32,266 nucleotides of DNA from a virus. The position numbers were made by a program, and so were the translations under genes. The notes beneath the pieces were generated by a model. It ran no database searches, had not been told where the DNA came from, and was given only the letters and a program-made list of their open reading frames with translations. The stretch covers positions 1 to 32,266 of IMG/VR virus record IMGVR_UViG_3300037517_000941. One strand, written 5' to 3'. This document shows, piece after piece, positions 1 to 32,266 of the stretch (its first letter is position 1; each line of letters begins with the position of its first letter).

Positions 1-157
1 GACCTGCCACCACCACATTTTCACCGGGAACAAAACCACCGATGTACTTATCCAATCTGGTGAACCCGGTGGGCAATCCAATAGTTTTAATTTCGGATTT
101 GCTTCGTTTCTCCAAGTTATCAAAGCTGTCACCGAGTAGAGTAATCAGGTCAACAGC
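1..157. repeat. terminal redundancy, left copy (circular overlap)
   Basis: These 157 bases recur in the same orientation at 32110-32266 with one mismatch (T at 127, G at 32236). The repeat lies inside the helicase gene, and joining position 1 to 32109 restores one uninterrupted reading frame. This fits an assembly overlap of a circular or circularly permuted genome better than a physical terminal repeat. The mismatch changes one codon (Ser versus Arg) and could be a population variant or a read error. Confidence 0.93.
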
Positions 158-550
158 TTGTCCGTTTTCGTTCAGTTGTATTTCATCAATAGTTTTTTGA
201 ACTTCCGACATGGACTGCATTATTTCACTTCCGTTGGTCAGGTCATTGACAATTTTTGTCAAGTCAATAGTCAGGGTTTTGCGGATGTATTCCTGATGCA
301 ACATTGAAACCAACCGAGTAATGCTTTCTCCTGTGTAGTAGTTGTTCAGTCCTGCGATGTCCATTGCCATATCCCGGTGCTTCATTACCACCGCCACGTT
401 GTCGATGTGTTCGTTGTTCAGGTACATCGCCTGAATGGTCAAACATAGGGTGCGGTATTTTGGCACGGTGAACCATTCACTGCGTACCGTTGCGGTAAGG
501 TCAAGCTGCTTACCTTGCAACCACGTTCCGAGTATTTGTTGCTCAATCAT
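1..550 (-). CDS. dnaB: replicative DNA helicase, DnaB family (N-terminal part; continues at 32109)
   Basis: This is the first 183 codons of the phage replicative helicase; the remainder is at 31424-32266, where the circle closes. It starts at ATG 550-548, overlapping the stop of the upstream gene by ATGA, so the two are translationally coupled. The N-terminal part is the helical DnaB N-domain (reads MIEQQILGTWLQ at the start) and the linker follows. Walker A lies at about residues 181-189, right at the left edge of the window. Joined length is 411 aa, slightly shorter than cellular DnaB (about 450-470 aa). It would unwind DNA at the fork, loaded by the protein encoded just upstream. Confidence 0.93.
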   Translation of the reverse strand, partial: MIEQQILGTWLQGKQLDLTATVRSEWFTVPKYRTLCLTIQAMYLNNEHIDNVAVVMKHRDMAMDIAGLNNYYTGESITRLVSMLHQEYIRKTLTIDLTKIVNDLTNGSEIMQSMSEVQKTIDEIQLNENGQAVDLITLLGDSFDNLEKRSKSEIKTIGLPTGFTRLDKYIGGFVPGENVVVAG

Positions 551-1143
551 GGTAAATAATTTATGGCCTTCGCCTGTTCAACTTCCATAGGTTTCAAAAA
601 TGGGATGGTGTTTGCAAGTTTGGTTTTCCAGTTCTTAATCTTTTTTCCGTGACCATCCACCCACCCGGCTTCCACCCATTGATTGTATTTGGCTTCAATA
701 GGGTAACGATAACCGGGTTTCAGTCCTTTCATTCCGTATTCGCAAAATTCTTCAAGCGTAGGTATTGTATTTGTATTTCTTTTTTTATTTACAATTACAT
801 TTTCATTTTCATTTTCCATATGTTTAACATATGTTTTTGATATGTTATTCATATCTTTTTTTATTCTGTTATTCCTACGACTTTCGGAATATGCCTTACG
901 TTTTTGAACTTCCGCAGACAACCTTTCATTCAGGTAGTTACCATTTTCATCCTTTACAAACTTTGAAAATATATCTTCATCATATGTGCCACATATCTGT
1001 AACATATCTTTTTCAGTCAGTATGCCTTTTTGGTGTTGTAGGCATAGCAGGGTAATGTATTTTCCTTTTTGTTCCATAGTCAAAAGCATTGTTCCGGTCA
1101 GGAAGTCGCTGGAATAAAATAGGAATGCTGGGTCTTTGCTCAT
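547..1143 (-). CDS. replisome organizer / helicase loader-like protein
   Basis: 198 aa. The N-terminus (DPAFLFYSSDFLTGTMLLT, then a KGKYITLL stretch) resembles the YdaU/DUF1376-type start of phage replication proteins, with a basic, Asn-rich linker at about 95-130 and a C-terminal region rich in Trp and Lys. It ends in an ATGA overlap with dnaB, which is the classical place for an origin-binding protein or helicase loader. The gene contains two arrays of 11-bp repeats (817-860 and 970-1013) that are out of phase with codons, as in lambda gene O, where the origin lies inside the initiator gene. The function is inferred from N-terminal pattern and context; there is no catalytic motif. Confidence 0.6.
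   Translation of the reverse strand: MSKDPAFLFYSSDFLTGTMLLTMEQKGKYITLLCLQHQKGILTEKDMLQICGTYDEDIFSKFVKDENGNYLNERLSAEVQKRKAYSESRRNNRIKKDMNNISKTYVKHMENENENVIVNKKRNTNTIPTLEEFCEYGMKGLKPGYRYPIEAKYNQWVEAGWVDGHGKKIKNWKTKLANTIPFLKPMEVEQAKAINYLP
817..860. repeat. iteron array 1, four 11-bp repeats
   Basis: The hexamers CATATG (817), CATATG (828), GATATG (839) and CATATC (850) are spaced exactly 11 bp apart, each followed by a short T-rich tract. The period is not a multiple of three, so it cannot come from a protein repeat and points to selection on the DNA. About one helical turn per repeat places all copies on one face and phases the A/T tracts, as in initiator binding sites or bent DNA. The array lies inside the putative replisome organizer gene, so it is a candidate origin. 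Confidence 0.7.
970..1013. repeat. iteron array 2, four 11-bp repeats
   Basis: TATATC (970), CATATG (981), CATATC (992) and CATATC (1003) again repeat every 11 bp. The core is the same as in array 1, which lies about 110 bp away. The coding phase differs in successive copies. The two arrays together give eight copies of CATATS-like units within 200 bp. Confidence 0.65.
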
Positions 1144-2116: not shown

Positions 2117-2621
2117 GTTAGCCAATTCCAAATGGCTTCCTGACTTCTGTAATAAAATTGGAAGTCATGTCGCTGCCGACCTACAACAACACCTTTTGCT
2201 AATATGCTGTGAAATGGATGCCGACCGCCTGATACAACTGCACCAAAGCAATGGACTGGTGTACTACCTTGTCCGGGTGGGGTGCAATGCGGTCAACGGC
2301 AACAGATACACAAAGTTTTATCGGGACTTTATCCGTTCAATGGATCCGCTGCCTGATGAATACGATGAGGAAGCCGAGGACTACGATGAAACCCACCTGC
2401 GTAAAAAACAAGAAGCGGTGCAATCGGTAAACTTCAAAGAGGTGGCTAATCACTTTAACCGTTCCGAATGGTACGTGGTTAAACTATGGCAGCTATGGGA
2501 AGACAAACAAAGCATGGCATTGATGGCCCGGGAAACGAAAATCAATTACCGGGAGATTAGCCAAATCATAAACGCAATCAAAACACAAATCAAAGAAAAA
2601 TATAATGAATACGATGACTGA
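2088..2621 (+). CDS. sigma-70-like / HTH transcription regulator
   Basis: 177 aa from TTG 2088; an ATG at 2025 is possible but would overlap the HNH gene by 92 nt. The N-half (KWLPDFCNKI, then DLQQHLLLICCEMDADRLIQLHQSNGLVYYLVRVGCNAV) resembles the sigma region 2-like part of small phage sigma-type proteins in Bacteroidota phages. An acidic linker (PDEYDEEAEDYDE) follows, then a helical C-terminal region (EVANHFNRSEWYVVKLWQLW and YREISQIINAIK) that looks like helix-turn-helix. The assignment is by pattern and context; a DNA-binding protein without sigma activity is the main alternative. It could recognise the CTACTTTTATAGATAG element found at six genes. Confidence 0.5.
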   Translation: MNRRTEILIELANSKWLPDFCNKIGSHVAADLQQHLLLICCEMDADRLIQLHQSNGLVYYLVRVGCNAVNGNRYTKFYRDFIRSMDPLPDEYDEEAEDYDETHLRKKQEAVQSVNFKEVANHFNRSEWYVVKLWQLWEDKQSMALMARETKINYREISQIINAIKTQIKEKYNEYDD

Positions 2622-2859
2622 CATTTTGGGAGTGGCCGCATTGTGCGTTCTGCTTTCCCGGTACTTTTTCCCACCGATGATTTCATTTGTCTATGCCTTG
2701 GACAGCCGTTACCGCAAGACAATCAAACCTTTTGAATGCGGTTTCTGCCTATCGTGGTGGACAGGGCTGGTATGGTTTACCGTTGAATTTGGATTGTACG
2801 GAGTTATTTATGGTGCATTATGTGCTATATTTGGGGCCTTAATTGACCGATACCTATGA
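2605..2859 (+). CDS. small membrane protein with CxxC motif
   Basis: 84 aa with two or three hydrophobic segments (about 8-26 and 50-80) separated by a cytosolic or periplasmic loop holding FECGFCLSWW. No family is named with confidence; similar short proteins with a Cys pair followed by a Trp-rich segment occur in phages. ATG codons at 2605 and 2614 are both possible; the first follows an A-rich stretch. It overlaps the preceding gene and its stop overlaps the next start (ATGA). Confidence 0.7.
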   Translation: MNTMTDILGVAALCVLLSRYFFPPMISFVYALDSRYRKTIKPFECGFCLSWWTGLVWFTVEFGLYGVIYGALCAIFGALIDRYL

Positions 2860-2942
2860 CACTAATTGAAATCACATTGACTGGCATCGCTATGGGGGTT
2901 GTCTTACCCTGTGTTTGTTACTTTATAATGACTCGTATATGA
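2856..2942 (+). CDS. 28-aa membrane peptide
   Basis: A very short frame with one hydrophobic segment (reads MTLIEITLTGIAMGVVLPCV and on to MTRI). Both ends are ATGA overlaps with the neighbouring genes, which is how most adjacent genes in this genome are joined; this is the main evidence that it is translated. No function can be assigned. Confidence 0.5.
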   Translation: MTLIEITLTGIAMGVVLPCVCYFIMTRI

Positions 2943-3145
2943 CACCTGAACAGCGTTCACTTTGCCTTGACTTGAAGTCGCATATTGAGAGGATAAACAA
3001 GACCGGCACTTACTCACTTGAAGCTGGGTACTATGCCAAATTAAACGAAGTACACAGACAGTTGTACGGACAACCGTTCCCAGCGTGTCGCAGTTGTATG
3101 TTTGATGCACTAAAAAAACTATATAGGGAAGCACTCAATGGTTAG
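2939..3145 (+). CDS. hypothetical small Cys-containing protein
   Basis: 68 aa from ATG 2939 (MTPEQRSLCLDLKSHIERI). Mostly helical; it carries CRSCMFDALKKLY near the C-terminus, a CxxC followed by an amphipathic helix. It overlaps the upstream peptide by ATGA and the downstream glycosyltransferase by 8 nt. Function unknown. Confidence 0.65.
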   Translation: MTPEQRSLCLDLKSHIERINKTGTYSLEAGYYAKLNEVHRQLYGQPFPACRSCMFDALKKLYREALNG

Positions 3146-3899
3146 TATTATTCATGGCGGCAATGCAGGGGATTTGATTTACTCACTCCCGGCAATGAGA
3201 GCAGCATCCCGGTTGCACGATAGCAAGGTGCACCTTTATTTACAGGTGGATGTACCAGCGCAATACAATTTCAATCACCCAATGGGCAAGGTGCAAATGA
3301 ATTTAAAGATGGCACAGATGCTCGTGCCGTTGCTGATGTCTACGGATTTCATAGGTAAATGCACAATCACAGATGAAGCCGCAAAATGCGACTACAATTT
3401 TAACCTATTCAGGAAGTTTCACAATTACACGGGCCACATCAGCCAGTGGTATTTTCATATCTACCCCGAACTGACCTGCAACCTTGCCGAGCCGATACAC
3501 TTTGATGTGTGGCAATTAGGCAACCATCAAATCATTTTAAACCGCACAGCCCGTTATCACAACCCGACATTTGATTATTCCATCCTGCGCAGGTATCAGG
3601 ACAAGATTAAATTTGTAGGGCTTGCCGATGAATACCGCATCATTTCGGCCAAGCTGCCCGACATTGAACACATCCAAGTCAATGACTTTGCGGAATTGTG
3701 CGGCATCATAAAGGGCTGTGAGATATTTGTCGGCAACCAGTCAATGGCCTATGCCATAGCGGAGGTAATGAAACATCCCCGTGTTGTTGAAATCTGCCCG
3801 ACTGCGCACAATGTCATTCCAACGGGCGACAATGGGTTTGGTGCATGGACAATAATGAACTTAACACAAATACTAAAATCAAAATATGAGCAAAACTAA
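3138..3899 (+). CDS. GT-B glycosyltransferase, GT9 (heptosyltransferase)-like
   Basis: 253 aa. Begins with HGGNAGDLIYSLPAMRAA (residues 6-23), the acceptor-side signature of GT9 heptosyltransferase-like enzymes (GD-hhh-PA). The C-terminal part has FVGNQSMAYAIAEVMKHP (about 196-213), matching the nucleotide-sugar side of the fold. It is shorter than cellular heptosyltransferases (about 320-350 aa). It overlaps the SAM methyltransferase gene downstream by 14 nt. The likely role is modification of a phage virion component or host surface glycan; the substrate cannot be read from sequence. Confidence 0.65.
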   Translation: MVSIIHGGNAGDLIYSLPAMRAASRLHDSKVHLYLQVDVPAQYNFNHPMGKVQMNLKMAQMLVPLLMSTDFIGKCTITDEAAKCDYNFNLFRKFHNYTGHISQWYFHIYPELTCNLAEPIHFDVWQLGNHQIILNRTARYHNPTFDYSILRRYQDKIKFVGLADEYRIISAKLPDIEHIQVNDFAELCGIIKGCEIFVGNQSMAYAIAEVMKHPRVVEICPTAHNVIPTGDNGFGAWTIMNLTQILKSKYEQN

Positions 3900-4503
3900 A
3901 TCACCTATCACGGGCAAGGTAGCCAAAAAGGCATTTGTCAAAGGTGGTGTGCAATACTACACCGATGACTTGTTAAACATCTTCTGCAAAAAGTTAGACC
4001 AATCAGGCATGGTGGGCGGTGGCAAAGAAGATGAACGCAATGCCGATGAGTTAAACCAAACCCGATTGGAACGCATCCGCAAAATATCAGGAAAGGATAA
4101 CCCCACCATTTTAGATTACGGCTGCGGCACTGGTTTAATGGTTACTTTTATGCAGGATGCTGGTATTGATTGCGATGGTTATGACCCTTATAACGGATAT
4201 TATGCCGATGTTTTATCCCTTAAAAAGGACTATGATGTAATTGTGCTGACCGAGGTAATAGAACACCTGACAGCACCATTTGCCGAGTTGGCCGAAATAA
4301 AAGAGTTCTGCCACCCCGGTAGTAAGATAATGATTGAGACATCCTTTGCAGATTGGCTGACCGAAAATGACGAATACATTGAACCAGCCGTTGGTCATTG
4401 CACAATTTTCAGCCATGCCGGGCTTGACCATTTGATGGCGCAGTTCGGTTTTGTTCCTGACAATCACATCAACAGAAACGTAAGAATATATGCAGTGGGT
4501 TAA
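3886..4503 (+). CDS. class I SAM-dependent methyltransferase
   Basis: 205 aa. Motif I ILDYGCGTGLMVTF at about 75-88, the acidic loop GYDPYN at about 97-102, and VIVLTEVIEHL at about 118-128 are typical of UbiG-like class I methyltransferases acting on small molecules or sugars. The N-terminal 60 residues are basic and may be an added substrate-binding segment. It lies between the GT9-like glycosyltransferase and a DNA methyltransferase fusion. It lacks DNA-methylase motif IV, so DNA is unlikely to be the target; a glycan or peptide is plausible. Confidence 0.75.
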   Translation: MSKTKSPITGKVAKKAFVKGGVQYYTDDLLNIFCKKLDQSGMVGGGKEDERNADELNQTRLERIRKISGKDNPTILDYGCGTGLMVTFMQDAGIDCDGYDPYNGYYADVLSLKKDYDVIVLTEVIEHLTAPFAELAEIKEFCHPGSKIMIETSFADWLTENDEYIEPAVGHCTIFSHAGLDHLMAQFGFVPDNHINRNVRIYAVG

Positions 4504-5731
4504 ATTAACACAGGTTCGGCCAAACCCGAACAATCCCCGTGTCATCCGGGATGATAAGTTTGCAAAGTTGAAGCAGTCAATTATTGACTTTCCTGAAATG
4601 CTGGAAAAGCGGCCTTTGGTTTGCTATACCGAAGGCGAACATTACATCGTGCTGGGTGGCAATATGCGACTGAAAGCATTATCGGATATTGGTGCAAAAG
4701 AGATACCGATTATTTTGGCAGACGAATGGACACAAGAACAACGGGCGCAGTTTCTGATTAAGGACAACGTGGGCTTCGGTGAGTGGGATTGGAACGCACT
4801 TGCAAACGAATGGGATGCAGAGAAATTAACAGAGTGGGGTTTGGATTTGCCACCAATGGATGCAATAGAGTTGGAAGCAGAAGAAGATGATTACGAAATG
4901 CCCGATGAATTGCAGACAGATATTGTGCTGGGTGATTTATTTGAAATTGGTGAGCATAGGTTGCTTTGTGGGGATAGTACAGATAGCGATGCGGTTGCAA
5001 GGTTGATGGATGGTGTAAACGATGCCTTTTGTTTTACATCACCACCATATAATGCCGGGGATAGTGCAAAGTTATCGGGAAATATGGCAAGTGCGAATAG
5101 AGCAAATTTATATCAATCATACGATGACGAACAAAGTCCCAATGATTGGAAGCAATTATGCATAGCGACCATAAACAATGCTATGATGCATTGCAAAGTT
5201 GTCGCATACAACATACAAATGTTGGCGAACAATAAGATAGCATTCCTGTCATTGCTTAATGACTACAAACAAAATCTTATTGATATTGCAATTTGGAATA
5301 AGGAACACGCTGCACCTCATGTGGCTGAAAATGTAATGGCAAGTACTTTTGAATTTATTTTGTTTTTATCACCAAAAACAAATCCTACGAAAGCAATTAC
5401 TACTGGTAAATTTAGGGCGGTACAAAATGTATATTCTGCACCACCGCAGAGAAACAATGAATTTGCAAAACATCACGGTGCAACATTTCCAATGCATTTG
5501 CCCGAATGGGTGATTAAAACATTCACCACCAATCAACCAGTGCTTGATTTATTTTGTGGAACAGGAACCACAATGGCTGCTTCACACCAACTTAAACGCA
5601 AGTGCTACGGAATGGAACTTGACCCGAAATACTGCCAAGTAATTATCGACCGAATGATTAAACTTGACCCGACACTTGAAATCAAACGTAACGGGCAAAC
5701 TTACAACCGACAAACAACCGATGGCCAATAA
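4490..5731 (+). CDS. ParB-like nuclease domain fused to DNA methyltransferase
   Basis: 413 aa. Residues 1-95 form a ParB/Srx-like domain (VRPNPNNPR, then VLGGNMRLKAL at about 54-64). Residues about 145-390 form a DNA methyltransferase with GDLFEIGEHRLLCGDS, catalytic TSPPYN (about 183-188) and SAM-binding DLFCGTGTTMA (about 351-361). Motif IV before motif I defines the beta class; TSPPY favours N4-cytosine but N6-adenine is possible. Such fusions are common in phages and probably protect phage DNA from host restriction. No cognate restriction gene is adjacent. The stop is overlapped by the start of the next gene. Confidence 0.88.
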   Translation: MQWVKLTQVRPNPNNPRVIRDDKFAKLKQSIIDFPEMLEKRPLVCYTEGEHYIVLGGNMRLKALSDIGAKEIPIILADEWTQEQRAQFLIKDNVGFGEWDWNALANEWDAEKLTEWGLDLPPMDAIELEAEEDDYEMPDELQTDIVLGDLFEIGEHRLLCGDSTDSDAVARLMDGVNDAFCFTSPPYNAGDSAKLSGNMASANRANLYQSYDDEQSPNDWKQLCIATINNAMMHCKVVAYNIQMLANNKIAFLSLLNDYKQNLIDIAIWNKEHAAPHVAENVMASTFEFILFLSPKTNPTKAITTGKFRAVQNVYSAPPQRNNEFAKHHGATFPMHLPEWVIKTFTTNQPVLDLFCGTGTTMAASHQLKRKCYGMELDPKYCQVIIDRMIKLDPTLEIKRNGQTYNRQTTDGQ

Positions 5732-6605: not shown

Positions 6606-7660
6606 AAGCGTTAGCCCTTTGGGAAGGGATGGGTGGAGTTGAATACCACCGCCTATACACACCACTAAAACGATTGCAGATTGATTACCCTGATGACATC
6701 ACGGTTAGCATATCGCAGAACTTTGAACGCAATGGAATACCGCATTTATCTAACTACGACTTGGTCATCTTCAACAGATGGCTGGGAGAGAACCACTACG
6801 AGATACTCCACTATTTGGCAAAGAACAATATCAAATACATCGTGGACATTGACGACTATTGGGTATTGCCAAAACACCACCCGACATATAAGTACTTCCG
6901 GGAACATAAACTGAAACAGCAAATTATTGACGGGATCCGGTATGCCGATGGTGTGACCACCACAACCGACTATCTTGCGCAAAAGATATCCAAGTACAAC
7001 CACAATGTGCAGGTGCTGCCCAACGCACTTGACCTGACAGATGACCAGTGGCTTTCAACCCCACAGGAACGAGAATACTTCACCTTTGGCTGGGTGGGTG
7101 GACTTACCCACAGCAATGACATCATGATACTATCGGAAGCAATCGAACGCATCTGCAATGAGCATGACAATGTCCGCTTTGTTTTGTGCGGATGGATGGC
7201 AAATAACTACATTTGGGATAGCATCTTGTACAAGTTCAATGGAAACAACCCGGTGCTTCGGCCACAGGTATTGGTCAGCCATGCACAACAGCCCAACGAG
7301 TACGGCAATTTCTACCGCCTGTTTGATTGTGCGTTAGCACCATTGGAACAGAACGAGTGGAATAGCTGCAAATCCGAACTGAAAATAATTGAAGCGGCTG
7401 CATACGGATTGCCGGTTATCGCATCGGGAGTTGAACCATACCTGCAACACCTGAACAATGCAGGGGTGAAGTTCTGCCTGAACACACCAGATGAGTGGTA
7501 TAAAGCAATGAAACAGGCAATGGAAAGCCAACCCGAAGCAAACAAAATCAGAGGGGAAGCAAATCAGGTTTACTGCAATGAACACCACAACCTTGAAGCC
7601 ATAAACAAAGACAGATTGGAATTTTATCAATGCACATTAGCTACACCCGGCCATTCGTAA
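6602..7660 (+). CDS. glycosyltransferase, GT4-like (GT-B fold)
   Basis: 352 aa. Recognisable features are an N-terminal Rossmann half with DLVIFNRWLG (about 53-62) and IKYIVDIDDYW (about 77-87), the domain linker VQVLPNALDL (about 136-145), FGWVGGLTH (about 159-167), and the C-terminal donor-binding signature SELKIIEAAAYGLPVIASG (about 257-275). This is the usual GT4 arrangement. The 3' end overlaps the terminase gene by 31 nt, so it is expressed with morphogenesis genes, which hints at a virion or cell-surface target. Partner candidates are the GT9-like enzyme and the SAM methyltransferase at 3138-4503. Confidence 0.82.
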   Translation: MKALALWEGMGGVEYHRLYTPLKRLQIDYPDDITVSISQNFERNGIPHLSNYDLVIFNRWLGENHYEILHYLAKNNIKYIVDIDDYWVLPKHHPTYKYFREHKLKQQIIDGIRYADGVTTTTDYLAQKISKYNHNVQVLPNALDLTDDQWLSTPQEREYFTFGWVGGLTHSNDIMILSEAIERICNEHDNVRFVLCGWMANNYIWDSILYKFNGNNPVLRPQVLVSHAQQPNEYGNFYRLFDCALAPLEQNEWNSCKSELKIIEAAAYGLPVIASGVEPYLQHLNNAGVKFCLNTPDEWYKAMKQAMESQPEANKIRGEANQVYCNEHHNLEAINKDRLEFYQCTLATPGHS

Positions 7661-8817
7661 CGGATTACCAACGGGCGATACTTGACAGCCCAGATAGGTA
7701 CACCGTGACCGCTGCTGCTACGAAAGTTGGCAAGACAGCGAGCCATATTATTTGGCTGTTTGAACAGGCATTGAAGCTAAAAGAAAACCAATCCGTGTGG
7801 TGGGTTGCACCCGTTTACCAACAAGCGGAAATCGCATTCAGGCGGATGCGTAACCAAGTGACCGTGCGTGATTTTTTCAAGGTCAATGAAAGCAAGTTAC
7901 GATTGACACTTCCAACCGGGGGGATAATTGAATTTAAATCAGCAGACAAGCCCGACAACCTTTATGGTGATGATGTCTATGCAGCCGTGTTTGATGAGTT
8001 CACACGGGCGAGAGAAGATGCGTGGTATGCCCTGCGTTCTACCCTGACCAAAACAGAAGGCAAGGCAAAGCTAATCGGTAACGTGAAAGGCAAAAAGAAC
8101 TGGGGATATAAGCTATCCGAACGGGCAAGGATGGGCGAACCGAACTACGGGTTTTTCAAGATTACCGCTTATGACGCAGTCAATGCAGGTGTCCTGAAAC
8201 TTGAAGAAGTGGAACAGGCCAAACGTGACTTGCCGCAGCACATATTTTCCGAGCTGTATCTTGCCGAGCCAACCGAAGATGGTAGCAACCCGTTTGGATT
8301 GAGCTACATTTCGCAGTGTATTGCACCGATTTCCACCGCACCTGTTGAGTGGTACGGCATTGACCTTGCAAAGTACAGCGACTACACGGTGATCATTGGC
8401 CTTGACTCCGAATACAGGGTGTGCTATTTTGACCGCTTTCAAAAGGACTGGGCGCAGACAGAACAGCACATCATCAGGGTGGTAGGCAACACCCCTGCTG
8501 CCATAGATAGCACGGGAGTAGGTGACCCGATTGTTGAGAAGATACAACGGCATTGCCCCCGTTCCGTTGGGGTGAAGTTCACATCGGTAAGCAAACAACA
8601 GATGATGGAGCAGTTGACCGCTGACGTTCACGCTGGGCTGATTAAGTTCCCAGAGGGAATAATCGCAGATGAAATGCGTAACTTTGAATTTGAACACACG
8701 GCAACGGGGTTGCGTTATTCTGCACCATCAGGGTTGCACGATGACGCTGTATGTGCGTTGGCACTTGCCCGGTATTGCAGCCAAAAGAATAAGAAAGGGG
8801 TATTTGTCATAATATGA
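7630..8817 (+). CDS. terL: terminase large subunit
   Basis: 395 aa. ATPase domain: Walker A AATKVGKT (about 28-36) and Walker B AAVFDEFTRA (about 118-127). Nuclease domain: GIDLAKYSDYTVIIGLD (about 243-259), AIDSTGVGD (about 291-299) and GLHDDAVCALALA (about 368-380), giving the RNase H-like acidic residues. It packages DNA into the prohead through the portal (20050-21801). Length is at the short end for large terminases. The start lies inside the preceding glycosyltransferase gene. Confidence 0.93.
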   Translation: MHISYTRPFVTDYQRAILDSPDRYTVTAAATKVGKTASHIIWLFEQALKLKENQSVWWVAPVYQQAEIAFRRMRNQVTVRDFFKVNESKLRLTLPTGGIIEFKSADKPDNLYGDDVYAAVFDEFTRAREDAWYALRSTLTKTEGKAKLIGNVKGKKNWGYKLSERARMGEPNYGFFKITAYDAVNAGVLKLEEVEQAKRDLPQHIFSELYLAEPTEDGSNPFGLSYISQCIAPISTAPVEWYGIDLAKYSDYTVIIGLDSEYRVCYFDRFQKDWAQTEQHIIRVVGNTPAAIDSTGVGDPIVEKIQRHCPRSVGVKFTSVSKQQMMEQLTADVHAGLIKFPEGIIADEMRNFEFEHTATGLRYSAPSGLHDDAVCALALARYCSQKNKKGVFVII

Positions 8818-25751: not shown

Positions 25752-25769
25752 GCAAAATTCTGTAAAATT

Positions 25770-25789
25770 GCTCATTCCATTGAGCAAAA
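25770..25789. terminator. bidirectional hairpin between convergent blocks
   Basis: TTGCTCA (25770-25776) pairs with TGAGCAA (25783-25789), loop TTCCAT, 7 bp, flanked by A-rich runs on the left and AAAAT on the right. It separates the end of the lysis gene from the end of the early block. Confidence 0.65.
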
Positions 25790-25812
25790 TCACTCAATGC
25801 TTTGTGTAAAAA

Positions 25813-27580: not shown

Positions 27581-27975
27581 TTTTCAATCTCCTTCAATGC
27601 AATGGTGTCACTTCCTGCCACATACACAGCAGGTTGAATGATATCCCCATCATCGGTAACAGGCAGCACCCCTTTTTCTTCCGACTTGTATGCCCATTTA
27701 GCAAGGTCTTCAATGGTGTTCATTTTCATTTTAGCAGCTGACCATTCATCAAGGTGGTCAAACTTCCAGCGACCTGCACCGGAACGACACTGGATTTCAA
27801 AGCCCATGTGCTGAAATGTCTTGCCATACATCTGTGCTTCGTTTATGGCCTGTGATTGTATCTGCTCCTTTGCCGCTTTGATTTGCTTTTCAATGCGGGT
27901 GAGTTGGCAGAACGCATCCAAAGCGGATGCGTTGCCTTCCTCTACATCAAATAATAAATTCACGATGTCCATCAT
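27577..27975 (-). CDS. Gp157-like hypothetical protein next to recombinase
   Basis: 132 aa, helical N-terminal region (about 1-50; LFDVEEGNASALDAFCQLTRIEKQIKAAKEQI) and a mixed C-terminal region (GKTFQHMGFEIQCRSGAGRWKFDHLDEW). The pattern resembles Gp157-like proteins that accompany phage recombinases. It overlaps the Rad52-like gene by ATGA and probably acts with it. Function inferred from context. Confidence 0.55.
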   Translation of the reverse strand: MMDIVNLLFDVEEGNASALDAFCQLTRIEKQIKAAKEQIQSQAINEAQMYGKTFQHMGFEIQCRSGAGRWKFDHLDEWSAAKMKMNTIEDLAKWAYKSEEKGVLPVTDDGDIIQPAVYVAGSDTIALKEIEK

Positions 27976-28433
27976 GGCTTCAATATTATTACTTCCTTGA
28001 AGTTACCGAGATTAACCCACTCCACCAGCTTTGTCAACTTGTCCTGCGCCCAGTCAGGGATATACTTTTCGTTGCATTCGATGAACACCTTGGGGTAATC
28101 ATACAGGCATCGGCCCAAACCGAACTGCACCGCAGCCCTTTTCATTGCATCACTGATACCACCCTTTTCAGGTTCGATATTTGTCTTTGATGCACCATCT
28201 TCCCGGTAGACAAATTGACCATCCAAATACACGGTCAATCGGCAGATAAAGCCGTTGGTTATCTCCCTGAACTCCGATTTCCAATTTATCGGCCCGAAGG
28301 CAGCGTCAAAGCGTTGCATTACGCATCTGTTGTTAATGTACGGCACGACAATCATTTTGCCTGTGCTGGTAACTGATTGCACACGCCATTCAATCTCGTT
28401 TGGCTGAATAGGTGCGGTTAGTGTTTCATTCAT
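27972..28433 (-). CDS. Rad52-type single-strand annealing protein
   Basis: 153 aa. VVPYINNRCVMQRFDAAFG (about 29-47) and KGGISDAMKRAAVQFGLGRCLYDYP (about 90-114) are hallmarks of the Rad52/DdrA-like annealing family in phages. It would pair complementary ssDNA during replication or recombination. It is shorter than many members, but both key blocks are present. A near-SD AAGGA precedes the start. It works with the SSB-like protein at 29961. Confidence 0.85.
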   Translation of the reverse strand: MNETLTAPIQPNEIEWRVQSVTSTGKMIVVPYINNRCVMQRFDAAFGPINWKSEFREITNGFICRLTVYLDGQFVYREDGASKTNIEPEKGGISDAMKRAAVQFGLGRCLYDYPKVFIECNEKYIPDWAQDKLTKLVEWVNLGNFKEVIILKP

Positions 28434-30319: not shown

Positions 30320-30943
30320 TTAAAATATACGCAACTGGGCTGCAAAATCTTTGTATCTTTTTTCTGCTGCTGCAAAATAATCATGGTCAAGTTCGCACCC
30401 GATAAAATCAAGTCCTGCTTTATGTGCGGAAATTCTGCTGCTGCCACTTCCCAAATGGGTGTCCAGTATTTTATCGCCTTGCTTTGCGTAGTTCTTAAAA
30501 ATCCAATCGTAAAGAGCAACTGGTTTTTGAGTTGGGTGTATTTTATGGGTTTGGTTATGTTTGTGGATTGAATACCTATAAATTTTAGCTGGTTTTTTCA
30601 ATCCCATAGAAACCCAAGCATATTCAGCAGAAGCAAAATTATCAACTGTTTGTGCTTTATCCCATATTAAAAAATACTCGCTTGGTGGCATTACAAAATT
30701 ATTTGCACCCCAAACTATTTGATTTTTTGAAACTCTAAATAATTCGTTAAAATATTCTTCAGTAGGTTTTTTATCCCATTCTAATTTATCTTTATAATTT
30801 CCTTTAACACCACCTAATCTTAAACTACCTTTTTGTAGTCTTTCTAAACCATAAGGCGGGTCAACAACTGCCAAATCAAAATACTTGTCAGGATAGCGTG
30901 ACATTAAGGCCATGCAGTCCTCGTTGTAAACTTCACTTATCAT
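30320..30943 (-). CDS. DNA methyltransferase, beta class (N6-adenine likely)
   Basis: 207 aa. VYNEDCMALM start, catalytic DPPYG (28-32), HPTQKP (136-141) and SAM-binding ILDTHLGSGSSRIS (159-172), then GCELDHDYF. The order DPPY before the SAM motif defines the beta class. It probably methylates adenine in a short DNA motif, protecting phage DNA; the region between the motifs (about 35-125), which includes target recognition, is more AT-rich in DNA than the flanks. The start overlaps the DnaA-like gene by ATGA. Confidence 0.9.
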   Translation of the reverse strand: MISEVYNEDCMALMSRYPDKYFDLAVVDPPYGLERLQKGSLRLGGVKGNYKDKLEWDKKPTEEYFNELFRVSKNQIVWGANNFVMPPSEYFLIWDKAQTVDNFASAEYAWVSMGLKKPAKIYRYSIHKHNQTHKIHPTQKPVALYDWIFKNYAKQGDKILDTHLGSGSSRISAHKAGLDFIGCELDHDYFAAAEKRYKDFAAQLRIF

Positions 30944-31395
30944 ATCTGTTCTGCAAAGTTTTGATAAGCATTTTTCACCGCTTCCACCTTCCGGGCAAAT
31001 GATTTGTCAAAAGTCATCAGGTTGTCCACCGTTTCAATGCTGTGTATCATTGTGGAGTGGTCACGGCCACCGCATATTTGCCCGATTTTTTGCAACGATA
31101 ACGAGGTTTTATGCCGCAAAATCCAAATGAATATTTGCCGCAATTCCAACACCTCACGTTTACGGGCTTTCACCTTGATAAATTCGGGCTGGTAGTACGG
31201 AAATACAGACCTGATTGCAAGGTGTGTGGCCTTGATATGCTCATCATCCTTGTCAATGTCCTGTACTTTCAGCACGGTTTCCAATTCCCTGATGCGGATT
31301 TGCTGGTGTCTGATTACTTCTTTCATTCTGTCGATTTCACTTTGGCGAAATGTTGTGCGGCTGTTGCGCTGTGGTGCTTTTAATTGTGTTCTCAT
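30940..31395 (-). CDS. DnaA domain IV (DNA-binding) protein
   Basis: 151 aa. A coiled coil at about 17-45 precedes a C-terminal domain with SLSLQKIGQICGGRDHSTMIHSIETV (about 98-123), the signature helix of DnaA domain IV that reads the DnaA box. The ATPase domains of DnaA are absent. It lies next to DnaB and has its own early promoter. It could bind the perfect DnaA box at 1799-1807 or interfere with host DnaA. Confidence 0.85.
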   Translation of the reverse strand: MRTQLKAPQRNSRTTFRQSEIDRMKEVIRHQQIRIRELETVLKVQDIDKDDEHIKATHLAIRSVFPYYQPEFIKVKARKREVLELRQIFIWILRHKTSLSLQKIGQICGGRDHSTMIHSIETVDNLMTFDKSFARKVEAVKNAYQNFAEQI

Positions 31396-31430
31396 GCTGC
31401 AAATATAGTTTAATTATTTATATTTAGAAA
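31396..31430 (-). promoter_or_regulatory. early promoter, Bacteroidota type
   Basis: On the minus strand TATATTTG (31407-31400), CAGC, then ATG at 31395. The -33 position reads TTTC, one mismatch from TTTG, with a 19-bp spacer. It lies between the dnaB stop and the DnaA-like gene. Confidence 0.6.
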
Positions 31431-32266
31431 ATATATTCAACTGTTTTACCCATAAAATTGCATTGCAGCGTTCCTGTCATCCCATTACGGCACTTGCTGA
31501 TAATGAGTTCAGCATCTTCAAGTTCAGGTGGATTGCCGCCATTCTTCTGGGCTTCGTAGTAATCAGGTCGGTAAGGGAATAACACCGTGTCCGCATCCTG
31601 TTCTATGGCACCAGACTCCCGAAGGTTTGCCAACTTTGGGCGGCTGTTTCCTTCCTCTGTTCCCCTGTTAAGTTGTGACAAGGGCATCACCGTACATCCG
31701 CATTCTTTGGCTATCAGTTTGCATTGCCGGGATATGTTGGCGATTTCCTGCTCCCGATTTTTACCGCCTGTGCTTTTGACCAACTGCATATAGTCAATGA
31801 TTACCAAAGTGGGTTTTACCTTCATGGTTTTTATTCGGGTTTTGATTTGTGCTATGTCCAGCATTGTGCTGTCCTCTATTTGAAATTTGTAATCAATGAG
31901 CAGTAATTCACGTGCGATATTCTCCAATTCAAATTCATTGACATCAGCGTTTCTCACTTTTAGGTTGTCCACCCGACCAAGGGATGAAAGTATGCGGTCT
32001 GCAAGTTGTTCTTTTGACATCTCCATACTGAACATTATAACCCTGCCACCCAGCTTTGCATGAGCAATCCCGATGCTGACTGCAAATGCTGTCTTACCCA
32101 TGCCGGGCCGACCTGCCACCACCACATTTTCACCGGGAACAAAACCACCGATGTACTTATCCAATCTGGTGAACCCGGTGGGCAATCCAATAGTTTTAAT
32201 TTCGGATTTGCTTCGTTTCTCCAAGTTATCAAAGCGGTCACCGAGTAGAGTAATCAGGTCAACAGC
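31424..32266 (-). CDS. dnaB: replicative DNA helicase, DnaB family (C-terminal part; starts at 550 across the join)
   Basis: Codons about 132-411 of the helicase, including the RecA-like motor: Walker A GRPGMGKT (about 182-189), FSMEMSKEQLADRI, Walker B LVIIDYMQL (about 284-292), the arginine-finger region PLSQLNRG (about 325) and SRPKLANLRESGAIEQDADTV. The set is complete, so the enzyme should be active. The first seven residues of any apparent TTG start at 32224 are an artefact; the true start is at 550. Confidence 0.95.
   Translation of the reverse strand, partial: AVDLITLLGDRFDNLEKRSKSEIKTIGLPTGFTRLDKYIGGFVPGENVVVAGRPGMGKTAFAVSIGIAHAKLGGRVIMFSMEMSKEQLADRILSSLGRVDNLKVRNADVNEFELENIARELLLIDYKFQIEDSTMLDIAQIKTRIKTMKVKPTLVIIDYMQLVKSTGGKNREQEIANISRQCKLIAKECGCTVMPLSQLNRGTEEGNSRPKLANLRESGAIEQDADTVLFPYRPDYYEAQKNGGNPPELEDAELIISKCRNGMTGTLQCNFMGKTVEYIF
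32110..32266. repeat. terminal redundancy, right copy (circular overlap)
   Basis: Same 157 bases as 1-157, with G at 32236 where the left copy has T at 127. Joining the ends at this overlap gives about 32,109 bp. Confidence 0.93.

Follow-up and report, generated by a model that had tools for sequence, protein, structure and literature searches.

Helical-turn iteron arrays conserved as DNA inside a DUF1376-like phage gene: a likely intragenic replication origin

The stretch of DNA analysed here (the window) comprises an entire virus record, 32,266 bases long. Positions 1-157 and the last ~157 bases of the window are nearly identical, with at least 1 mismatch, and lie inside dnaB; the genome therefore appears to be circularly permuted, with dnaB split across the ends. 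The gene under study, listed with its features in Table 1, is read from the minus strand, which corrects the strand of the original prediction. The ATG of dnaB (548-550) overlaps its stop codon. By direct search, DnaB was located downstream in the window and in 21 of the 91 relatives that could be tested, and in several of the remaining relatives the next gene encoded a TOPRIM-DnaB primase-helicase. This gene context is a direct observation. No RNA family and no tRNA were found.

Table 1. Positions of the initiator gene, its internal repeats and the adjoining helicase gene in the window
Feature	Position	Strand	Remark
Initiator/replisome-organiser gene, 198 aa	547..1143	-	DUF1376-like winged helix, disordered linker and helical C-terminal domain
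Winged-helix domain (residues about 8-80)	904..1122	-	
Array A, 11-bp iterons	970..1008	-	Within the winged-helix coding region; 981, 992 and 1003 constrained, 970 (TATATC) degenerate and unconstrained
Codons of residues 81-96 (KRKAYSESRRNNRIKK)	856..903	-	C-terminal end of the long helix that follows the wing; inferred to set iteron specificity
Array B, four 11-bp iterons	817..855	-	In the linker coding region; adjoins the AT-rich repeat directly
(GAAAAT)3 and AT-rich tail (TTTTCA repeat on the plus strand), putative DNA-unwinding element	785..816	-	GAA/AAT codons invariant across the family
C-terminal helical domain	598..759	-	Differs between homologues
DnaB helicase, N-terminal part	1..550	-	Gene runs on across the circular junction at 32266
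DnaB helicase, C-terminal part	31424..32224	-	

Several other features of the genome were recorded. A Rad52-family single-strand annealing protein is encoded at 27972-28433 on the minus strand (Pfam E 1e-17), a ParB-like nuclease fused to a DNA methyltransferase (phrog_498, 413 aa) at 4490-5731 on the plus strand, and a second methyltransferase at 30320-30943. Between the last plus-strand gene and the convergent minus-strand genes lies a 22-bp tandem repeat of 2.5 copies (25757-25811), which may be a terminator or a binding site. Downstream of dnaB, the minus-strand gene at 30940-31395 encodes a 151-aa protein with a DnaA domain IV (Bac_DnaA_C, E 3e-16), in which no ATPase domain was found; similar proteins were present near 10 of 101 relatives. 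A perfect DnaA box, TTATCCACA, is located at 1799-1807, upstream of the initiator operon in an intergenic region that is divergent and AT-rich, and the 151-aa protein could possibly bind it.

The AlphaFold2 model of the initiator protein (pLDDT 84) showed a winged-helix domain followed by a long helix that ends at about residue 94, then a predicted disordered linker at about residues 96-125, and a helical C-terminal domain. The modelled stretch begins at codon 2, and model residue i is protein residue i+1. Both array B and the AT-rich repeat are held in the DNA of the predicted linker. The same domain layout was predicted for L022, a class-2 allele. The window protein matched PHROG ‘primosomal protein’ families weakly, and its score against DUF1376 (PF07120) was 20.7, under the Pfam gathering cut-off of 30.1. 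Among 60 homologues, 44 matched DUF1376 (E<=0.01) and 48 matched phrog_9327, and others matched replication-initiation, O-like, DnaD-like and replisome-organiser families; the ‘O-like’ PHROG (phrog_678) matched 6 members. No match at E<=0.01 was found among the 60 members to Phage_rep_O (PF04492), which lambda O itself matched at 6e-36, or to RepA_N (PF06970). A sequence search of the PDB with the window protein found nothing, and the fold search against the PDB returned only generic winged helices, with a best Z of 5.8 to ORC2 and Z of 3.7-4.1 to Rep/initiator entries, none of them a confident match. The original prediction had called the gene a replisome organizer, and the call was supported by the PHROG primosomal and initiation families and by the DnaB gene immediately downstream.

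Within the gene, the copies of a hexamer recur in two groups at a step of exactly 11 bp. The words of array B are CATATG (817), CATATG (828), GATATG (839) and CATATC (850), and those of array A are TATATC (970), CATATG (981), CATATC (992) and CATATC (1003). In gene orientation, array A occupies nt 136-174 and array B nt 289-327, with GAAAATGAAAATGAAAAT directly after array B. TRF independently detected both arrays with a period of 11 (812-860 and 971-1009). CATATG occurs only 3 times in the 32,266 bases, always within these arrays, and the scan of the window revealed no further run of three or more [CG]ATAT[GC] at 11-bp or 12-bp spacing. A run of four together with a run of three arose in 6 of 20,000 permutations of the synonymous codons of the gene (P about 3e-4). 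Only two 100-bp stretches of the genome are less stable than 763-862. The hexamer positions and the 11-bp spacing reported in the original prediction held for both arrays, as did its argument that protein sequence cannot explain the periodicity because 11 is not a multiple of three. Its copy at 970 had to be corrected, since this copy reads TATATC and relatives show only background codon use there, leaving three constrained copies in array A. The flanking (GAAAAT)n repeat was absent from it and counts as part of the feature.

Scans of viral and genome contigs gave a homologue set of 273 distinct genes, 102 of them non-redundant, mainly from Bacteroidota phages with some from Clostridia MAGs. 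Although Bacteroidota account for most hosts, the CATATG-class genes L238-L244 come from MAGs with the label Clostridia, possibly owing to a phage host jump, a binning error or a wide host range. In the lag test, the protein was held fixed, the synonymous codons of each gene were permuted within that gene, and lags 4-35 were scored. Lag 11 was outstanding (mean Z 1.96), with Z above 2 in 56% of the 102 non-redundant genes; lag 22 was the main echo (1.20), and the other lags in the range fell between about -0.15 and 0.6. The 42 genes of the non-CATATG classes gave a mean Z of 1.89 at lag 11. Applied to lambda O as a control, the same procedure returned lags 20, 23 and 24, which are the annotated lambda iteron spacings. 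Two checks suggested with the original prediction were covered by these tests: the 11-bp phase was kept in homologues while codons drifted, a strongly positive outcome, and codon shuffling did not explain the phasing.

The codons themselves were also constrained. In 66 non-redundant class-1 (CATATG) genes, the array B codons matched the iteron in 173 of 173 cases, against 82 expected. The codons of array A copies 1-3 were GAT in 40/40, ATA in 50/52, TGT in 45/53, ACA in 23/25 and TAT in 37/39 cases, and this result is free of selection because the class was defined without array A. The constrained copies of array A were those at window positions 1003, 992 and 981, whereas the fourth (970) was not constrained. 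Free codon drift was seen at residues 81-93, in the SESRR segment, where the amino acids are equally conserved. Across 81 genes, the E-N runs encoding (GAAAAT)n used GAA 288/288 times and AAT 221/221 times, against backgrounds of 0.78 and 0.64; with these codons invariant, the repeat is kept as DNA. Our results showed that the iterons are DNA-level elements and not a by-product of the protein sequence, and that their spacing is conserved. Bent DNA and T-tracts, raised as an alternative in the original prediction, were rejected as a conserved property, since GC-containing classes retain the spacing and the CCACGGCA and ACGAACGTA classes keep the helical-turn step without T-tracts. Sulfitobacter phage pCB2047-C had no 11-bp array, and no named phage or plasmid matched well; the searches returned only MT837034, a gut contig without annotation, and distantly related DUF1376 genes from proteobacterial phages.

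In other members of the family the place of the arrays is taken by alternative words that again step by 11-12 bp, namely ACGAACGTA, CCACGGCA, GCAATGCA, CAATCGTA, ATACC and CCTAA; in detail, the further classes are CCACGGCA/GGCAATGCC, GCAATGCA, CAATCGTA, ATACC..GGTA, CCTAA/AGGTT, ACTAGT and TGCGAACGC. The 12-bp step was seen in some B arrays (L422, L409 and several CCACGGCA genes). The location of array B beside (GAAAAT)n is general across classes, whereas array A is present in some classes and absent from several others. Outside class 1, arrays A and B of one gene shared 4.2 6-mers, compared with 1.15 shared with array B of other classes (permutation maximum 2.15).

Both the sequence classes and natural recombinants between them were observed directly. 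L021 and L022 share the C-terminal domain of the window protein but differ in the N-terminal half, and at both array positions they have ACGAACGTAWT repeated at an 11-bp step. L022 belongs to class ACGAACGTA and the window to class CATATG; L022 and the window form one natural exchange pair, and L070 and L025 another. L188 and L265-L270 differ in their N-domains but retain SESRR-like segments and CATATG. In L337 (gene 2501-3211), the HTH is of class 1 and array A of the CATATG type, yet the segment is of the KQR type and array B of the ATACC class; L337 is an apparent mixed recombinant, which suggests that array A need not match.

The part of the protein that follows the iteron word was mapped with 12-residue protein windows, using segment identity as the predictor of the same word in gene pairs (AUC). 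With the first classes, the AUC was about 0.5 for residues 1-40 and 57-84, about 0.7 for residues 41-60, and 0.93-0.94 for residues 81-96. Since the region used to assign the first classes overlapped with the codons of residues 84-96, the assignment was repeated strictly downstream of residue 96 with at least 2 hits, which gave the same result. With the redefined classes, residues 85-96 gave an AUC of 0.924, and of 0.923 among pairs with core identity <55%, in which residues 1-80 reached at most 0.49. When the CATATG-CATATG pairs were left out, residues 85-96 were still the best predictor (0.906), but relatedness raises all segments in that comparison. The iteron class patterns were chosen after looking at the arrays, so the AUC values are descriptive. 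SESRR.N-type segments paired with CATATG in 12 N-domain clusters, and a single N-domain cluster of 182 genes contained several segment-word pairs. An independently found human-gut contig, MT837034, combines a QRQREN segment with ATACC..GGTA repeats, as the pattern predicts. The HTH region 41-60 was rejected as the specificity determinant, with an AUC of 0.67-0.74 overall and 0.49 between distant pairs; its overall value is attributed to array A and relatedness.

The covariation of segment and word is an observed result. Residues 81-96 are probably the specificity element contacting the iteron, a contact inferred from covariation without binding data. The main alternative is linkage, as residues 81-96 adjoin array B on the DNA. 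Linkage is weakened by the free drift of the segment codons and by the distant-pair result, and is not fully excluded.

We consider it likely that the locus is an intragenic origin of the lambda-O/RepA_N-like type, consisting of iterons and an unwinding element, in a DUF1376-like primosomal/initiator family, with both origin activity and binding inferred. The arrays would be iterons bound by the protein of the same gene, and with the (GAAAAT)n tract they would form the phage replication origin. Copies of the protein on the 11-bp iterons, one per helical turn, would all lie on one face of the DNA, and their assembly would melt the AT-rich (GAAAAT)n tract adjoining array B. The opened DNA would be passed to the replicative helicase DnaB, the product of the next, overlapping gene. 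Residues 81-96, at the helix end after the winged-helix domain, would set which iteron word is recognised, and this segment with array B, and with array A where present, would be exchanged between phages as a specificity module. The mechanism is modelled by analogy on lambda O, SPP1 gp38 and pSK41 Rep (PMC7466680, PMC6316719, PMC5703833). Binding, melting, helicase loading and the start of replication at the arrays are inferred, with no binding, footprint, origin-activity or replication-profile data. The reading of the repeats as origin iterons in the original prediction was supported, the binding of the purified protein to the region remaining an inference, and the lambda O precedent that it cited for an origin inside an initiator gene fits (PMC7466680; lambda O control). 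The GC-skew check that it proposed showed a sign change near the gene but was confounded by gene direction and was uninformative. Against the origin reading, array A is missing in several classes and non-cognate in L337, some B arrays step 12 bp and not 11, and the perfect DnaA box some 660 bp upstream likewise recurs in most close relatives.

The best surviving rival, which we regard as unlikely, is that the arrays bind the encoded protein for control (as an operator, or for copy-number or incompatibility) while replication starts elsewhere, most plausibly in the intergenic region 1737-1846. In its favour, the perfect DnaA box is found upstream of the gene in most of the 23 relatives examined, the AT-rich divergent intergenic region includes the fourth least stable 100-bp stretch (1741-1840), and the phage encodes the DnaA-domain-IV-like protein. 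Against it, there is only one box, and the window contains no more DnaA-like sites than chance would give (4 vs 7.2 expected); the box lies anywhere from about 610 to 1420 bp from the gene; the arrays abut an invariant AT-rich repeat, which is the layout of known origins; and a position 135-330 nt inside a gene would be unusual for an operator. The region 1741-1840 with its conserved DnaA box is retained as a possible rival origin or transcription control site.

A second rival, very unlikely and already contradicted, is that the periodicity comes from conserved protein sequence and that class and segment are linked by shared descent only. Array A does lie in conserved wHTH residues, array B in a conserved peptide (KDM..IS.TY..HMENEN), and segment 81-96 physically beside array B. 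However, lag 11 remained outstanding after codon permutation with the protein fixed, the codons of the SESRR segment, whose residues are no less conserved, drift while the iteron codons are invariant, the linker that contains array B and the (GAAAAT)n tract is predicted to be disordered, and the same word goes with SESRR-type segments over 12 N-domain clusters. Phage pac sites may lie inside genes and partition sites are repeat arrays, but a packaging, partition or other phage DNA site lying in the gene by chance is made very unlikely by the membership of the gene in primosomal/initiation families beside DnaB, by an array word that follows a segment of the same protein, by the adjacent invariant AT-rich repeat, which has no packaging rationale, and by the location of the terminase genes elsewhere (7630-8817).

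Beyond the intragenic origin itself, a bolder reading, to which we lean only slightly, is that the family represents a naturally diversified initiator-origin recognition code. A helix end of roughly 16 residues (SESRR.NR, KA.ESV..RW, KQR..A..GW, N[LI]S..A..TW and other types) would read an 11-bp word, one of several, that lies a few codons downstream in the same gene, and the swap of one short cassette would change origin specificity. If this is true, cassette swaps would perhaps allow escape from incompatibility, superinfecting relatives, satellites or origin-targeting nucleases; selection on iteron words has a precedent in the phage nuclease that targets the iterons of a satellite (PMC8263062). 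The parallel specificities and natural recombinants make initiator-origin recognition and its change testable by a 16-residue swap. Most metagenomic phages have no mapped origin, and the origin signature proposed here can be read from sequence for a large, mostly uncultured phage group (273 distinct genes). It would also assign a role to DUF1376-like proteins, for which Pfam gives no function or origin. In addition, the family provides a clear case of a peptide conserved because of the DNA that writes it.

Lambdoid phages, SPP1 and RepA_N plasmids already provide examples of intragenic iteron origins. Apparently new, as far as the open-access literature was searched, are the helical-turn arrays, the presence of a second array within the DNA-binding domain, the mapped segment and the many different specificities; no report of intragenic iterons in DUF1376 genes was found there, and most subscription journals were outside the scope of the search. 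The window protein itself belongs with DUF1376 (PF07120) and the ‘primosomal protein’ PHROGs 9327, 3992 and 6451. In phage SPP1, the gene of the origin-binding protein gp38 likewise contains direct repeats and an AT-rich unwinding element (oriL; PMC6316719), whereas SPP1 has a second origin, oriR, and the scan of the window found no second array. In lambda, the origin lies inside the O gene, in the DNA encoding the linker between the DNA-binding and C-terminal domains, several iterons are followed by an AT-rich tract, and the next genes supply helicase-loading functions (PMC7466680). The lambda iterons differ in being 18-19-bp inverted repeats spaced 20-24 bp apart, whereas the family of the window has 11-bp (some 12-bp) steps, often a second array within the DNA-binding domain, no PF04492 match, and the phage's own DnaB in place of P. 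The RepA_N protein pSK41 Rep also has a winged-helix N-domain, with Rep boxes located centrally within rep, and its central linker, encoded by ori, is dispensable as protein (PMC5703833). The AlphaFold2 model aligned weakly (Z 3.7-4.1) with the Rep-DNA/initiator entries 5kbj, 4pql and 4pt7, which we take to be pSK41-type RepA. The RepA_N (PF06970) initiators are those of plasmids, whereas the family described here is from phages, lacks a RepA_N match, and has helical-turn iterons and an inferred specificity segment after the wing. Modular exchange of the N-domain together with the origin has occurred naturally in pPR9 (PMC5703833).
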